Origin: Nitrospirota bacterium
Lineage (GTDB): Bacteria > Nitrospirota > Nitrospiria > Nitrospirales > Nitrospiraceae
DNA: 43,523 bases
Direction: 5' to 3'
Assembly (NCBI GenBank): GCA_020027965.1
Contig: JAHRHE010000008.1
Location: 1-43,523, forward strand
A program made the translations under genes and the position numbers. Of the stretch, positions 373 to 10,798 are shown in pieces (positions within the stretch are counted from its first letter, which is position 1; each line of letters starts with the position of its first letter). Under the pieces are notes generated by a model. That model did not search any database, was not told the DNA's origin, and worked only from the letters and a program-made list of their open reading frames with translations.

Positions 373-747
373 CTATCCTCCTCCCGATGGCACTTGCACC
401 CGTTGCCAGGAGGTGACCGCGCCGTCTTCGAAATAGACCCGAAACTCAGCCGTGTCGCAGGGATTCCTCCCGCCGGGAGGATAGAGCCACACTTCGACGG
501 GCCTGCCTTGGTACTGAATGGTTTTCTTGCAGATGGGTTCGCCGAACACCAGGTAGACCTGGTCATGATCCATGCCATGCACAGGGTAGCCTTGGTCGAT
601 GGCTCGCTTGATGTGCTCGGGGTAGGCGGGATACTTCTCCTTCATGAGCCGGCTTCGTTCCAGGTCACAGCCGGCCAGCGCAGCCAGCGTAACGAGCGCC
701 ACCACCAGCGTCCTTAAGCCTGTACTTCGTACCTTGTGCGTGCTCAC
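373..747 (-). CDS. Small lipoprotein, BamE/SmpA-like fold suspected
   Basis: A 124-residue exported lipoprotein. The GTG at 747 was chosen because a GAGGTG ribosome site (755-760) lies 7 bases upstream and the N-terminus then has a short basic region, a hydrophobic stretch (LVVALVTLAALAGC) and a lipobox Cys near residue 24. The open frame extends to 864, but that extension is proline/arginine-rich and lacks a leader. The mature part carries GMDHDQVYLVFGEP, then a strand-rich VEVWLYPP and FRVYFEDGAVTSW. The pattern of helix, 'VFGEP', then beta strands resembles the BamE/SmpA/OmlA superfamily found in envelope assembly and uncharacterised lipoproteins. It faces icd tail to tail. The exact function is not known. 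Confidence 0.7.
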   Translation of the reverse strand: MSTHKVRSTGLRTLVVALVTLAALAGCDLERSRLMKEKYPAYPEHIKRAIDQGYPVHGMDHDQVYLVFGEPICKKTIQYQGRPVEVWLYPPGGRNPCDTAEFRVYFEDGAVTSWQRVQVPSGGG

Positions 748-963
748 CTGCTCGCACCTCGCTAGCCAGAATCTTTCTCTTCTCTCCCTTGCGCCTGGTC
801 GATGTTGGTCCAGGTGTCCCGGAGGAGTCAAGCATCTTTCCGGGGGTGCGAAGGCGGGAGACATTCTCGGGCCGAGTCCTTTGATTCTCGCGGCACGCTC
901 GGATCATCCCACCGGCCTCAACACCCTCGGACGCACGCGGCTCTTCCAGTCCGGTTCGTCTCA

Positions 964-992
964 TTGAAATCCCGCAGACCCTGTGATAAAGT
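964..992 (+). promoter_or_regulatory. Promoter of the disrupted tRNA-Glu copy
   Basis: TTGAAA (964-969), a 17-base spacer and TAAAGT (987-992), ending 43 bases before the tRNA start. It is a near copy of the promoter at 2093-2121, with the same boxes, same spacer length and same distance to the tRNA, so promoter and gene were duplicated together. Confidence 0.65.
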
Positions 993-1035
993 GCGGCCCC
1001 ATTCGACAGATCCCCCTCTCAATCGAAGACCGGCT

Positions 1036-1276
1036 GGTCCCATCGTCTAGCCTGGCCCTGCCCGGATGAATCACGAACATCTACTGCGGCAGCCGATCCT
1101 CTCGCCCGGCGCGACTGTTCTCGCTCAGCCTCCTCGACGTACTGCAGAGAGTACGCCTGCGTCGTCCTCGCCTGCGAGCAGCCGCTGAGGCCTTCGGTCT
1201 CCGCTGCCTCGCGACGACGTTCCTGATTCATCCGGGCTGATCGGGCCCTCTCAAGGCCCAAACACGGGTTCGAATC
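1036..1276 (+). pseudogene. tRNA-Glu(CUC) pseudogene interrupted by a palindromic element
   Basis: Bases 1036-1057 are identical to the first 22 bases of the intact tRNA-Glu at 2166. Bases 1243-1276 match its anticodon arm, variable region and T arm up to TTCGAATC, where identity stops, so the 3' T stem and acceptor strand are missing. Between the two halves lies a ~180-base element with perfect 14-base inverted ends, replacing about seven bases at the D-arm/anticodon junction. With neither D arm nor acceptor stem complete, no functional tRNA can form. The flanking promoter is preserved. Confidence 0.8.
1060..1237. repeat. Palindromic insertion element, copy 1
   Basis: Ends are a perfect 14-base inverted repeat: GCCCGGATGAATCA at 1060-1073 and its complement at 1224-1237. 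The inside contains CATCTACTGCGGC after the left end, CTGCGTCG..CTCGCCTGCGAG in the middle, and CCTCGCGACGACGTTC before the right end. The same blocks in the same order occur in the copy at 10514-10760. There is no coding capacity, so it is a MITE- or REP-like non-autonomous element. No clear target-site duplication is visible inside the tRNA. Confidence 0.7.
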
Positions 1277-1310
1277 GTCCGCTCCTCCCAGGCAGGCGCT
1301 CGCGAACAGT

Positions 1311-1339
1311 TTGTGATGGCGGTTCAGTTGGTGTAAAGT
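1311..1339 (+). promoter_or_regulatory. Putative promoter of the toxin-antitoxin pair
   Basis: TTGTGA (1311-1316), a 17-base spacer and TAAAGT (1334-1339). An inverted GTAA/TTAC pair (1333-1346) overlaps the -10 box and could be an operator for the antitoxin. The -10 box is the same TAAAGT as in the tRNA promoters. Confidence 0.4.
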
Positions 1340-1380
1340 AGGTTACCTCTGCCAAGTGTTGAATAAGGAGAAATCTTCTT

Positions 1381-1635
1381 ATGGGGCGAAAAGGCGCTGA
1401 CGCATCCAAGCTCGTTCTTGAAGTGCCCGTGGAATTGAGCGCTATCTTAAAACGTCATCGCGAGATCCCGTGGACGCGTGTGGCGGAGCAGGCCTTGTGG
1501 CAGTATGCGCGCAAGGTGCAGCTCACAGACCGACTGGCCTCTCGGAGCGCATTGACCGTTGAGGCGGCCAAAACGATCGGGCGGGAGGTCAAGGCCGGGC
1601 TACGTCGTCGGTACGTCAAACGCAGCACGCGATGA
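1381..1635 (+). CDS. Antitoxin of a PIN-domain toxin-antitoxin pair
   Basis: An 84-residue basic protein with an AAGGAG ribosome site (1365-1370) ten bases upstream. Its stop overlaps the toxin start as ATGA (1632-1635), the usual translational coupling of type II pairs. The N-terminal ~45 residues contain KLVLEVPVELSAILKRH, a strand followed by a helix, then WTRVAEQALWQYARK. This layout resembles a ribbon-helix-helix DNA-binding antitoxin of the VapB class. The C-terminal part is basic (GLRRRYVKRSTR) and would be the toxin-binding tail. Antitoxins of this kind neutralise the toxin and repress their own promoter. The assignment rests on position, size and fold pattern, not a diagnostic motif. 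Confidence 0.65.
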   Translation: MGRKGADASKLVLEVPVELSAILKRHREIPWTRVAEQALWQYARKVQLTDRLASRSALTVEAAKTIGREVKAGLRRRYVKRSTR

Positions 1636-2048
1636 GGTTGATCCTTGATACGAATGTCCTGATCGCCGCCTTAATGAAAGATTCTCTGACCAGGGAAATT
1701 CTCCTATTCCCTGGCTTCGAACTTCTCCTCCCCGAATACGCCCTCGAGGAAATCACCAAGCACCGGACAAAAATTGCTCGGCATGCACGTCTGCGAGGAG
1801 AAGAGATTGACTTACTACTCACTATCCTCCTCGAGTCCATTTCCGTCGTACCGAAAGAGGAGATTAGATCCCATATGCAGGCGGCAGAAGAGCTGATCGG
1901 TGGTGTTGATCCGAATGATGTGCCGTTTGTGGCCCTGGCGCTTGCTCGTGAGAATGATGGGATCTGGTCCAACGACCAGGCCTTTGATGGAATACCAGGC
2001 ATTCGGCGATGGACGACCGCGGATATCAAGGCCTATTTGCACCTTTGA
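1632..2048 (+). CDS. PIN-domain ribonuclease toxin (VapC-like)
   Basis: A 138-residue PIN-domain protein. The acidic metal-binding residues of the family are all visible: D6 in LILDTNVLIAAL, E39/E40 in EYALEEITKH, D96 in GVDPNDVPFVALALA and D115 in IWSNDQAFDG. PIN toxins use Mg2+ or Mn2+ to cut RNA, often tRNA or rRNA, when the antitoxin is lost. The start overlaps the antitoxin stop (ATGA). Lower GC and a more AT-rich codon choice than the neighbours suggest acquisition by transfer. It lies between two copies of a tRNA-Glu gene. The 'D-PND-PF-ALALA' form is closer to the PIN_3/COG1569-type subfamily than to classical short VapC, so the exact substrate cannot be stated. Confidence 0.85.
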   Translation: MRLILDTNVLIAALMKDSLTREILLFPGFELLLPEYALEEITKHRTKIARHARLRGEEIDLLLTILLESISVVPKEEIRSHMQAAEELIGGVDPNDVPFVALALARENDGIWSNDQAFDGIPGIRRWTTADIKAYLHL

Positions 2049-2092
2049 GGGAGCGATAACCCACTCACGCTCTCTCCGGTGGTATGTCCGCG

Positions 2093-2121
2093 TTGAAATC
2101 CCATACCCCTTGTGCTAAAGT
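2093..2121 (+). promoter_or_regulatory. Promoter of intact tRNA-Glu
   Basis: TTGAAA (2093-2098), a 17-base spacer and TAAAGT (2116-2121), with the tRNA starting after a further 44 bases. The same arrangement upstream of the broken copy supports the assignment. Confidence 0.65.
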
Positions 2122-2165
2122 TCACTCCCTCCGCAAAGCTCTCTTCGCGGTAATCACGACCGGCT

Positions 2166-2243
2166 GGTCCCATCGTCTAGCCTGGCCTAGGACGGGGCCC
2201 TCTCAAGGCCCAAACACGGGTTCGAATCCCGTTGGGACCACCA
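2166..2243 (+). tRNA. tRNA-Glu (anticodon CUC), CCA encoded
   Basis: The acceptor stem GGTCCCA (2166-2172) pairs with TGGGACC (2233-2239), followed by discriminator A and an encoded CCA (2241-2243). The anticodon stem GGGCC/GGCCC encloses loop CTCTCAA, giving anticodon CTC, which reads GAG. The T arm is ACGGG-TTCGAAT-CCCGT. The D arm is GTC..GAC around TAGCCTGGCCTAG. All arms fold, so the gene looks functional, unlike the copy at 1036. Confidence 0.93.
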
Positions 2244-2474: not shown

Positions 2475-3503
2475 TCATGGGCCGTTCCGCAACCCCTGTG
2501 AGCCCTGCTCTCGCGTGAAGCTTAGTTTTGGTACATCGAACGCAAACCGGAGTTGCACAGCCCAGTATTCCTGCACCAGCGTGCCTGGATGGTCCAACGA
2601 GCGATCCTGTTCCCGGTACACACTCAATTCATAATGGTCCTTCCAGCGAAACGCGAGGCCCAAAATCCAATCTAATTCGGTGGGGCTGAGCTTATTGTCC
2701 AACTCTCGGTCCGTGAACATATTTATGTCTCCAAAGAAGACAACCAAATTCTTGTAGAGGTCTGCGTCCAAATGCGCCACATACCGGAACAGGGCTCTGC
2801 CGGTGTTATCCGGTCGCGCGAAATAGTTGCTGTTGTGAAACAACCAGCCGAACCCGGCGTAGGCATTAAGATTCTGATTCGGAAACCGTTGCCGCCACCA
2901 GGAAAGATCATCAGCGGCTTGAAAGCGGCCGGTCAGTAGGGCATCGGCATAGATTTGTTTGAGGCCACTCCGATCGAGCGGCGCATCGCGCTCATACTGG
3001 ATCCGCCAGCCCCAACGATCAATCAACCCGGTGAGGGCGTAGGTCATATCCCACTCGGTGAGTATGATCCAGCCCTCCTTGCGATCGGAGAAGAAATTCT
3101 GATCGGTGTAGAAGGTGAGATACTGTTTGTACAGGTCCGTTTCCAAATGAAGCATGTGGCGCAATCCGACGAGGCCGGTATTGTCGGGCCGAGCTGCAAA
3201 CGTCGGGTTCGAGACAAATACGCCGGTCAGGAAATAGCCTCCGAACAATGTTTCCTCCGCCTCCCTGGCCGTGTCCCCTTGCTCCTCGAGGGAAGGAAGC
3301 GGCCGACCATATTTCTCCAACGCGAACGCTGGACCTAGGAGCCAGGCCCATACGGCAAGCCCGGCCCCGATGGACAGGAAGACCCTCCGGGCAGGAGCCG
3401 CCCCTGAGATCTTGAATATGAGGCTACTCTGCTTGATGGTGAAGATGGCCACGATGTCGCCCTTCCTCGATCCGCCCTGCGTGGACCGAACAAGAGCCGC
3501 CAC
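2475..3503 (-). CDS. Exported outer-membrane-like protein with internal duplication
   Basis: A protein of up to 342 residues. A signal-peptide-like stretch RRVFLSIGAGLAVWAWLLG followed by PAFALEK lies around residues 40-63, so the long N-terminus before it may not be translated; an in-frame GTG at 3452 gives a shorter leader. The mature part is rich in alternating aromatic strands (WIILTEWDMTYALTGL, ELDWILGLAFRWKDHYELSVYREQD) and ends in a strand, as in beta-barrel proteins. A motif occurs twice: ARPDNTGLVGLRHMLHLETD..YTDQNFFSDRKE and ARPDNTGRALFRYVAHLDAD..FGDINMFTDRELD. That gives two homologous halves. No named family is recognised, and the role is unknown. The flanking genes are a tRNA and a lipoprotein. 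Confidence 0.7.
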   Translation of the reverse strand: MAALVRSTQGGSRKGDIVAIFTIKQSSLIFKISGAAPARRVFLSIGAGLAVWAWLLGPAFALEKYGRPLPSLEEQGDTAREAEETLFGGYFLTGVFVSNPTFAARPDNTGLVGLRHMLHLETDLYKQYLTFYTDQNFFSDRKEGWIILTEWDMTYALTGLIDRWGWRIQYERDAPLDRSGLKQIYADALLTGRFQAADDLSWWRQRFPNQNLNAYAGFGWLFHNSNYFARPDNTGRALFRYVAHLDADLYKNLVVFFGDINMFTDRELDNKLSPTELDWILGLAFRWKDHYELSVYREQDRSLDHPGTLVQEYWAVQLRFAFDVPKLSFTREQGSQGLRNGP

Positions 3504-3799: not shown

Positions 3800-4231
3800 C
3801 TATGGATTACAGGCTGCAAAGATGGCTTCACAGTGGTTCAGGGCGTCGATAGTACTCGGGACGGATTGATAGCCGATGTCCGAGACCTGATCTCCTTCCA
3901 GAAGCACACTCGCCCAGCAGCCATGGTGAGGCCGTGGAAAACTTCCTTTCGATCCCGGAAAAGATTCCTGTAGCATCTGAGCCTCTTTGTAGTAGAGGAA
4001 AATGACACTATGGCCCTCGACCGTTTGACGGGTCGGTTCACCGGCACAGGCCAACAGGGCTTCTTTGCTCTTTCCAATGGTGGCGTCCCGATTCGGTAAC
4101 ACGGTCACCAGCCCCTGTGTCGCGCACCCCACGAGGTAACACAGACCCATGACGAGGAGCAGTCCTACTCTCCAATCGGGCGCCCGGCGCGCATGAGGCG
4201 GTCCGCTCTTGTTTATTTGTCGGCAGTCCAT
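3800..4231 (-). CDS. Small lipoprotein of unknown function
   Basis: A 143-residue protein with a hydrophobic leader VGLLLVMGLCYLVGC whose Cys36 sits in a lipobox (L-V-G-C). It is therefore probably lipidated and anchored in the envelope. After it come PNRDATIGKSKEALLACAGEP, VIFLYYKEA, CWASVLLEGDQVSDIGYQ and a Cys-containing tail CEAIFAAC. The pattern 'G..KE.LL.CAGEP......V..Y' resembles a recurrent family of small periplasmic lipoproteins with a BamE-like topology. The four cysteines after the lipid anchor could form disulfides. The ATG at 4231 gives a basic N-region; a GTG at 4168 is a possible shorter start. Function is unknown. Confidence 0.65.
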   Translation of the reverse strand: MDCRQINKSGPPHARRAPDWRVGLLLVMGLCYLVGCATQGLVTVLPNRDATIGKSKEALLACAGEPTRQTVEGHSVIFLYYKEAQMLQESFPGSKGSFPRPHHGCWASVLLEGDQVSDIGYQSVPSTIDALNHCEAIFAACNP

Positions 4232-4595: not shown

Positions 4596-5696
4596 ATGCA
4601 ACCACGCGAATTTCACGACGGCGCCCAGGATGGGCTGGAGCCGTTAGAGCCGCTCGACCCTGAGAAGATTCGGTCCTTCTCGGATCTCCTGGTGGCGATG
4701 GGGAAAACCGCCTTCGGCGGCCGGCGCCTGGGAGAGGCCTATGCGGTGCTGTCGGAGATGATCGGCGACCCGGACTGCGTGGTCGTGATGAGTCTGTCGG
4801 GCGCGATGACCATCGCGAAGATGGGGAAGATCATCAGCGCGATGCTGGATCTCGGTATGGTCCAGATCGTCGTGTCGACCGGCGCATTGGTCGCGCATGG
4901 GCTCACCGAGTCGGTCGGGAAGGTCCACTATCGCCATCACCCGTCCATGAAGGACGAAGAGCTGTTCCGCAAAGGGTACAACCGGGTCTACGACACGCTG
5001 GAGATGGAAGCGAACCTGAACTATGTCGAGCACGTCGTCTCGCAGACCCTCAAGCGGCTGGGCCATCAGGCGCCGCTGTCCTCGGAGCTGTTGATGCGAG
5101 AGCTGGGGCGCACCCTGGTGGATGAACACGAAGGTGGCGGCATTCTCAAGAGCGCCTTTCTGAAGGGTGTGCCGGTGTATATTCCCGCCTTCACGGACTC
5201 AGAGATGGGCCTCGACGTGGCGACGTGGTCAATGGCGAGCAATCTCGACTGGGCGCGGAGCCAGGGCCGGGATGGAGATCTCAGCGTGTTGCGCGCCCTG
5301 CATCAGCACCTGCCCACTTTCAACCCCTATTTGGATCTCAACAGCTATACAGAACGATTGCTCACGGCCAAACGGCTGGGCATTTTTACGATCGGGGGAG
5401 GCGTCCCGAGGAACTGGGCTCAGCAGGTACCTCCCTACATCGAAATCGGCAACATTCGCCTGGGATTGAACGTGAAGCCGCCGCGCTTCCAGTACGGAGT
5501 ACGCATCTGCCCGGAGCCGGACTATTGGGGCGGGCTCAGCGGGTGTACCTATAACGAAGGGATCTCTTGGGGAAAGTTTGTCACACCGCAGGAAGGTGGC
5601 CGCTACGCCGAGGTCCTGAGCGATGCGACGGTCGTCTGGCCGCTCCTCATGATGGGGCTGCTTGAACGGTTTCGTCCAAAAACCTCGCCGCCCTGA
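4596..5696 (+). CDS. Deoxyhypusine-synthase-family protein, candidate homospermidine synthase
   Basis: A 366-residue protein of the deoxyhypusine synthase (DHS) fold. Visible family features are MSLSGAMTIAKMGKIISAML (NAD-binding start), VSTGALVAHGLTESVG, GGGVPRNWAQQ, and near the C-terminus CTYNEGISWGKFV. The last contains the EG-SWGK signature whose lysine forms the enzyme-butylamine imine in eukaryotic DHS. Bacteria lack eIF5A. Published work on bacterial DHS-like proteins shows that some transfer an aminobutyl group to putrescine to make homospermidine, with NAD as cofactor. The pyruvoyl arginine decarboxylase and agmatinase genes 3-5 kb downstream supply a putrescine route, supporting a polyamine role. 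A strong promoter precedes it. The family is certain; the acceptor substrate is inference. Confidence 0.88.
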   Translation: MQPREFHDGAQDGLEPLEPLDPEKIRSFSDLLVAMGKTAFGGRRLGEAYAVLSEMIGDPDCVVVMSLSGAMTIAKMGKIISAMLDLGMVQIVVSTGALVAHGLTESVGKVHYRHHPSMKDEELFRKGYNRVYDTLEMEANLNYVEHVVSQTLKRLGHQAPLSSELLMRELGRTLVDEHEGGGILKSAFLKGVPVYIPAFTDSEMGLDVATWSMASNLDWARSQGRDGDLSVLRALHQHLPTFNPYLDLNSYTERLLTAKRLGIFTIGGGVPRNWAQQVPPYIEIGNIRLGLNVKPPRFQYGVRICPEPDYWGGLSGCTYNEGISWGKFVTPQEGGRYAEVLSDATVVWPLLMMGLLERFRPKTSPP

Positions 5697-9584: not shown

Positions 9585-10517
9585 ATGACGCTCCCTGACG
9601 GATGGCTCGGCGCGGAGCAGAATTTTCTCGGCATCGAGGAGCCCTGGTGCCACCCGGAGCACGCGGGGGTCTACGTGCTGCCCGCGCCTTACGAGCACAC
9701 TTCCAGTTATGTGCAAGGATCGGATCGCGGGCCATCGGCGATCATTGAAGCGTCCCGCCAGGTAGAGCTTTATGACGAAACTCTCGGCTCCGAAACGTAC
9801 CGTGAATGGGGTGGGGTGGCCACGCGAGCACCGCTAGACCTGGCGGGGAAAATCGACCGGGAGGCCGTCCACGCAATCGAGAAGATGGTTCAGCGCCACG
9901 TGGACCCGGCTCGGTTTCTCGTCACGTTGACCGGCGAACATACGGGAGCGCTCGGGGCCATCCGGGCTCATGCCAGACGGTTCCGTGATCTGTGCGTCGT
10001 GCAGGTTGATGCGCACGGAGACCTCCGGCAGGCCTACCAGAACAACCCGTACAGCCATGCGAGCGTGATGGCGCGTGTCGTGGAGGACGGCCTTCCGCTG
10101 GTCCAGGTCGGCATCCGATCCGTATCACCCGAAGAAATCGATCTGATCCGTCGCACCAAGACCATCGCGACGTTTTTCGCTTCGCAAATTCTGGATCCGT
10201 CCGGACCCTACGAAGGCCGTGCCGCGCGGTGGGTCCCGGAGGTGGTCAAGGCCTGCAGGGGCCCGGTCTATCTGACGTTCGACTGCGACGGCCTGGATGC
10301 GTCACTCGTGCCGGCCCTGGGGACCCCGGAGCCCGGAGGGCTCGGCTGGTACGACACCCTCGCGATGGTGACGGCGCTGGCTGAGGGGCCGGGCATCATC
10401 GGCATGGATGTGAGCGAGATCGCTCCGATCGAGGGCCTGGTCGCGCCCCAATTCGCCATTGCGAGGCTCATCTACCGGATTCTGGGCCGGGTGCGGGCCG
10501 GTCGTCGCGTCCACTAG
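9585..10517 (+). CDS. speB: Agmatinase / ureohydrolase family protein
   Basis: A 310-residue arginase-agmatinase-fold hydrolase. Metal ligands are visible: H119 in LTGEHTGALGAI, D142-A-H144-G-D146 in QVDAHGDL, and D233-C-D235 in LTFDCDGLDAS. These bind the two Mn2+ ions that activate water on the guanidinium group. The usual GGDHS is changed to TGEHT and DP to DAS after the DxD, common in divergent agmatinases. The ATG at 9585 is favoured by AGGGAGG just upstream; a TTG at 9552 is in frame but lacks a site. Directly following the arginine decarboxylase, it most likely converts agmatine to putrescine and urea. The TAG stop lies in the left end of a palindromic element. Confidence 0.88.
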   Translation: MTLPDGWLGAEQNFLGIEEPWCHPEHAGVYVLPAPYEHTSSYVQGSDRGPSAIIEASRQVELYDETLGSETYREWGGVATRAPLDLAGKIDREAVHAIEKMVQRHVDPARFLVTLTGEHTGALGAIRAHARRFRDLCVVQVDAHGDLRQAYQNNPYSHASVMARVVEDGLPLVQVGIRSVSPEEIDLIRRTKTIATFFASQILDPSGPYEGRAARWVPEVVKACRGPVYLTFDCDGLDASLVPALGTPEPGGLGWYDTLAMVTALAEGPGIIGMDVSEIAPIEGLVAPQFAIARLIYRILGRVRAGRRVH

Positions 10518-10760
10518 CCCGGATCGTCCATGAATATCTACTGCGGCATCCGATTCTCTCGTGGGGTGCCCATTGCTCCCAGAAATGCAATGGGCCATGC
10601 GCTTTTCTCAGTACTGTATGTGGTCACCGTACCGATCACCCGTTGCACTTCAGGGAGCAACGGGTCCCCGGTACGCCTGCGTCGGCCTCACTTGCGAGAA
10701 GCACCGGCGGACTTCGGCCTCGTTTGCCTCGCGACGACATTCATGCATAATCCGGGCTAG
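10514..10760. repeat. Palindromic insertion element, copy 2
   Basis: Ends are an 11-base inverted repeat: CTAGCCCGGAT at 10514-10524 and its complement at 10750-10760. CATGAAT follows four bases further in on both sides. Shared with copy 1 (1060-1237): ATCTACTGCGGC after the left end, CCTGCGTCG and CTTGCGAG in the middle, and CTTCGG..CCTCGCGACGACATTC before the right end. This copy also carries two similar hairpins, CCCATTGC/GCAATGGG (10569-10594) and CCCGTTGC/GCAACGGG (10639-10664), absent from copy 1. The element supplies the stop codon of the upstream gene. It is non-coding. Confidence 0.7.
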
Positions 10761-10798
10761 CCCCCGACTTTCACCAACATTGCCAGCGTCACCATCGT

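Follow-up and report, generated by a model that had tools for sequence, protein, structure and literature searches.

Two copies of tRNA-Glu(CTC) around a predicted toxin-antitoxin pair

The window analysed here, 43,523 nt of contig JAHRHE010000008.1 from a Nitrospirota bacterium (genome G000), carries two plus-strand copies of a tRNA-Glu gene with anticodon CTC. The right copy (2166-2243) is intact. It folds into a cloverleaf with a CTC anticodon and a CCA end, and of the two copies it is the only one called as a tRNA by ARAGORN and Rfam (58.6 bits, Glu CTC). Upstream, a sigma-70-like site scan found the promoter TTGAAA-17-TAAAGT (2093-2121, plus strand), which is followed by a leader of 44 nt (2122-2165) ending in GACCGGCT; part of this upstream region matches the genome G019 with 84% identity over 38 nt. 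A terminator-like hairpin on the same strand (2270-2288) does not exceed chance expectation. All tRNA-Glu(CTC) supply should come from this copy.

The left copy (1036-1276) has a promoter of the same form (964-992, plus strand), which resembles both that of the right copy (0 of 2000 shuffles as good) and the tRNA-Glu promoter of G013, and a leader of 43 nt (993-1035), again with GACCGGCT at its 3' end. Its nucleotides 1-22 (1036-1057) are an exact repeat of 2166-2187, and nucleotides 30-63, from the anticodon arm to the T-loop (1243-1276), exactly repeat 2195-2228. The 56 tRNA bases that remain, and the 8 leader bases ahead of them, match the right copy without exception, in exact repeats of 30 and 34 nt. 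The D-loop is cut by a 185-bp palindrome (1058-1242), and the final 15 nt (nucleotides 64-78) are missing: identity drops from 64/64 before a sharp breakpoint at 1276 to about 8/15 after it (Fisher p = 2e-6), and the sequence now occupying this site (1277-1292) is unrelated to the right copy. Neither a relaxed Rfam scan of 940-1360 nor ARAGORN detected a tRNA, and the sequence does not form an uninterrupted cloverleaf in which acceptor and T stems are paired, owing to the 185-bp split and the absent 3' end. The left copy is therefore a pseudogene: a MITE-like element interrupts the D-loop, and from the T-loop on the 3' end has been replaced. A tRNA with an intron-like insert was considered and rejected, as the 3' end is gone too and what is inserted belongs to a dispersed mobile repeat.

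The initial annotation had described a duplicated promoter, leaders of nearly equal length, a repeated tRNA 5' half and a left copy that is split by a palindromic element and is no complete tRNA. All of this is borne out, with the correction that the last 15 nt are missing as well. Its proposal to align the two regions gave a divided answer. The promoters, the final 8 bases of the leaders and the tRNA align, whereas the remainder of the leaders (1562 of 2000 shuffles as good), the sequence upstream of the -35 box (1182 of 2000) and that past the T-loop (549 of 2000) do not. Within 860-2480, the two tRNA promoters were the only sigma-70-like sites found, with 0.6 expected. Since the same promoter architecture is also present in single-copy relatives, it is no mark of recent copying. 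GACCGGCT is likewise conserved ahead of tRNA-Glu in G013, G018, G019, G030, G011, G021 and G035. The tRNA body variant of both copies is common to G000, G013 and G016, and the left upstream region matches G013 more closely than it matches the right copy. As the leaders no longer align, either the copying lies some way back or one of the genes is of foreign origin; fully diverged leaders next to identical tRNA bodies point to an old duplication that was kept functional, or to copies from different lineages.

Between the two copies lies, as the initial annotation had stated, a two-gene PIN module (1381-2048, plus strand). It consists of a probable antitoxin of 84 amino acids (1381-1635), which overlaps the next gene by 4 nt, and a PIN_2 domain toxin of 138 amino acids (1632-2048; Pfam PF10130, 4.8e-29), a probable ribonuclease. 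The probable antitoxin has no match in Pfam, NCBIfam or PADLOC, and the assignment as a toxin-antitoxin (TA) module is a prediction from the PIN domain and the overlapping small upstream gene. A promoter for the pair was located by eye (TTGTGA-17-TAAAGT, 1311-1339); it is weak and falls below the sigma-70-like scan. The two genes are kept together in G034, G080 and G008, there at other sites, away from tRNA-Glu.

A palindromic repeat of the Nitrospiraceae

The element in the left D-loop (1058-1242, plus strand) has terminal inverted repeats of 22 nt (arms 1060-1081 and 1216-1237) that are 91% complementary, as in a MITE, and folds over its whole length into one hairpin (z = -5.3). A covariance model built for the element scores it at 193.5 bits and finds 6 matches in G000, 75 in G061, 62 in G017, 59 in G081 and 48 in G029. 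DNA matches were obtained in 45 of 100 relatives, mostly from two families. This repeat of about 180 bp is abundant in the Nitrospiraceae and a sister family (loci L077-L106 and L177-L236). In G000, copies lie at 1058-1242 and 10502-10763 of the window, at C254:2490-2675 and from C66:29019 on. The copy at 10502-10763 has a longer centre with an extra inverted repeat (cccattgctccc / gggagcaacggg region) and begins with CTAG right after a gene, where TAG may act as the stop codon; L182 is similar.

The two ends of the element have the consensus sequences CTAGCCCGGACTATTCATGAAT and ATTCATGAATAATCCGGGCTAG. Identical flanking 4-mers (CTAG, TTAA, CTAA) were found in 28 of 81 copies (shuffle mean 17; 0 of 2000 shuffles as good), so that a target-site duplication is apparent for the family. 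It is degraded in the window copy (CCTG / CTGA), and the exact insertion point in the left tRNA is therefore unreadable. With joined flanks as query, uninterrupted sites corresponding to one G081 copy were identified in four genomes (G029, G100, G106 and G120), each with a single CTAG, TTAG or CTAA, which demonstrates for this one locus that the element inserts.

In an alignment of 37 diverse copies, 25 of 42 predicted pairs had changed on both sides, and 93% of the cells pair, compared with 31-45% when slid. Because such compensatory changes extend along the whole length, the hairpin of the element itself seems to be maintained, be it as DNA for transposition or as RNA. The element belongs to no Rfam family at the gathering threshold, and a match at the relaxed threshold is due to chance; we thus discarded its identification as an Rfam RNA. 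A limited literature search on MITEs and palindromic repeats of Nitrospira and on tRNA islands yielded no earlier description. Similar ends are carried by an IS1380-family element (L147 in G064), with CTAGCCCGGATAATTCAGGAC at one end and GTCATGAATAATGTGGGTTA at the other. Most IS1380 loci have no such ends, and no IS1380-family transposase was found in G000.

Several copies are associated with tRNAs: there are two independent insertions in tRNA-derived sequence (tRNA-Glu and a tRNA-Lys fragment) and two behind tRNA-Arg. The tRNA-Lys fragment comprises the 3' part from the anticodon loop to CCA and was seen with the repeat inside at L007 960-1203 (C254 of G000), L099 and L192; in G000 it lies about 700 bp downstream of an intact tRNA-Lys(TTT). 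Being common to G000, G031 and G028, this insertion is old. In L102 (G014) and L106 (G020), repeat copies start directly behind the CCA of tRNA-Arg genes; their ends differ from the consensus and in L102 are still largely complementary. These cases suggest tRNA genes as a target of the element, a reading that was not retained, since an excess over the intergenic-insertion baseline is not established and L182 sits at a gene end.

Ancestral gene order and integration hotspot

Upstream of the left copy lies a gene for a small probable lipoprotein (373-864, minus strand). By tblastn, it is found beside tRNA-Glu in G018, G030, G011 and G019 with 54-69% identity. On the other side, a deoxyhypusine-synthase-like (DHS) gene (4596-5696, plus strand; Pfam PF01916) is located downstream of tRNA-Glu(CTC), or of its 3' fragment, in most relatives. 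G019 has the un-duplicated arrangement of lipoprotein gene, single tRNA, 1.5 kb and DHS gene. The ancestral order in the family is thus lipoprotein gene, promoter, tRNA-Glu(CTC), DHS gene. Relative to this order, one tRNA-Glu(CTC) gene has become two in the window, with the PIN toxin-antitoxin cassette between them; the left copy has kept the lipoprotein neighbour, and the right copy is on the DHS side. Two minus-strand genes (2475-3503 and 3800-4231) between the intact tRNA and the DHS gene lack a Pfam match and are without counterpart at this position in the relatives compared; the hotspot may have gained them in addition.

We surveyed the best 80 DHS matches in named genomes, mostly Nitrospira and other Nitrospiraceae, including N. 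moscoviensis and Ca. N. defluvii. Within the sequence examined, tRNA-Glu(CTC) sequence was present upstream of the DHS gene in 58 of these 80 loci (21 with a full gene only, 25 with a 3' fragment only, six with both and six with two fragments), and two full genes in none. Most of the fragments, which were found in 37 of the 80 relatives, begin at nucleotides 31-35 or 46-49 and reach nucleotide 78 or nearby, as would be expected from two kinds of attachment core. Phage integrase genes (PF00589 confirmed) adjoin tRNA-Glu or its fragment in G018, G030, G011, G012, G014, G029, G017 and G016. The tRNA-Glu(CTC) locus is an integration hotspot in the family. More than one integrase class appears to use it in Nitrospira (L107, L108, L109, L112, L123, L128, L131 and L143), apparently with two attachment-core lengths, from nucleotides 31-35 and from 46-49, both to 78.

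At the window locus, neither an integrase gene nor an att-like 3' tRNA fragment was found, while relatives carry an integrase together with a 3' tRNA fragment at the far end; that an island occupied this exact place is therefore inferred from the relatives. The general expectation voiced in the initial annotation, that islands copy just the 3' end of a tRNA gene, holds for the relatives at this same locus, and the window is the exception. With a 20-nt 5' signature, two promoter-bearing 5' halves on one contig were found in G000 alone among 175 family genomes, for which a single tRNA-Glu(CTC) gene is the norm. G174 and G205 have two copies each; they were not accepted as parallel cases, as their second full copies are on separate contigs and probably reflect mixed lineages.

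Origin of the locus

We consider it likely that an integration hotspot survives here as a scarred remnant, in which a single gene was made two and the left one was broken. The duplication of tRNA-Glu(CTC) relative to the ancestral order is shown, with a left copy that adjoins the upstream neighbour and a right copy lying towards the downstream gene. In view of the 64 identical bases, both copies would have been functional, or kept alike, until recently, and the redundant left copy broken afterwards. The second copy may stem from an old segmental duplication invaded by the TA cassette, or from foreign DNA with its own promoter and tRNA-Glu. Both the MITE entry into the D-loop and the loss of the 3' end of the left copy are evident, and their relative order can be inferred only. 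The TA pair is most readily understood as an independent cassette, either inserted at the hotspot or surviving from an island otherwise deleted. Arrival of the pair with the right tRNA was also considered and dropped, since in 0 of 175 genomes it is joined to the right leader.

The initial annotation had favoured tandem duplication or recombination between direct repeats. The latter is not supported, and neither is a recent tandem duplication, as leaders and flanks show no residual similarity. An older version of that idea, namely segmental duplication of promoter and tRNA, then TA insertion with loss of the left 3' end, and finally decay and MITE entry, is a tentative possibility that we place slightly short of an even bet. 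It agrees with the same architecture, identical tRNA bodies and similar promoters of the two copies, but the promoter argument is weakened by the single-copy relatives that share this architecture, and the affinity of the left upstream region is to G013 rather than to the right copy.

Alternatively, an integrating element might have brought a whole tRNA-Glu gene with its promoter, with a crossover in the 3' half, which we regard as unlikely. The native promoter and 5' half would then have been joined to element DNA, giving the dead left copy, the promoter and 5' half of the element would have come to lie on the native downstream flank as the live right copy, and the TA pair would be an element remnant. 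Such an exchange fits a left copy that still adjoins the native upstream gene and whose sequence breaks off in the T-loop, within the span of the att fragments of the family, and a right copy with an unrelated leader on the native downstream-gene side. However, islands whose far end bears a full copy with promoter were seen in no relative, the att fragments at this locus as a rule extend to the 3' end, so that integration would restore it, the locus has no integrase left, and the tRNA body variant is the same in both copies, namely that of G000, G013 and G016. That promoter and complete tRNA-Glu of the element replaced a native gene killed by the crossover, with the TA pair as remnant, we hold to be rather improbable; if it were true, the host would now depend on a tRNA gene from an integrating element.

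An assembly artefact fusing two strains is very improbable. The assembly is metagenome-like (263 contigs), and the left copy is near a contig end (the contig starts 1 kb upstream of it, and the wider context is missing), but the copies differ in leader and flanks and therefore do not represent a collapsed or repeated read, and the flanks of both fit one ancestral order. It is hardly credible that the TA pair is kept as a stabiliser of the duplication, as the initial annotation had suggested, or that a spare gene is of advantage because the PIN toxin attacks tRNA-Glu: the position of the pair and the fact that some PIN-domain toxins (VapC) cut tRNAs would suit this, but we found no evidence for such a role, related pairs lie elsewhere in their genomes, and the spare tRNA copy is dead.

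Returning to the scarred hotspot, loss of the left copy was probably neutral, because members of the family typically have just one intact CTC gene and G000 also encodes a tRNA-Glu(TTC) (C254:23311). The initial annotation had equated this loss with that of one GAG-reading tRNA. The left copy is indeed dead, but merely the family-typical single CTC gene has been restored, and the TTC gene is still there.

Comparison with known systems

The locus is a readable genomic scar, not a new system. It provides one readable case of an integration-site tRNA gene that was duplicated with its promoter and whose original was then lost, in relatives of the nitrifying Nitrospira, where tRNA-Glu(CTC) is a heavily used hotspot. 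As a by-product, an abundant, structured, transposon-like repeat of the Nitrospiraceae was obtained, for which neither Rfam nor our limited literature search holds an earlier description.

With the integration hotspots in tRNA genes that islands and phages use through tyrosine recombinases, the locus shares the use of the same tRNA across the family, the 3' att-like fragments and the adjacent integrases of its relatives. It differs in that the second copy in the window is complete and promoter-bearing rather than a 3' fragment, and in that no integrase was found there. Like VapBC modules, the TA pair has a small upstream gene overlapping a PIN-domain gene, but its toxin is a PIN_2 protein (PF10130) and reaches just 20.8 bits with the NCBIfam VapC model TIGR00028, for which the cut-off is 73.6. 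The palindromic element resembles bacterial MITEs with TTAA/CTAG duplication and IS1380-like ends in its complementary ends, 4-bp YTAR duplication and empty sites, with an IS1380-family enzyme as candidate mobiliser; unlike these, it folds over its whole length as one hairpin with covarying pairs. ERIC-type repeats of enterobacteria are intergenic palindromes of about 100-200 bp with tens of copies per genome, and by description the element is like them in size, intergenic palindromic nature and copy number, albeit in a different phylum.
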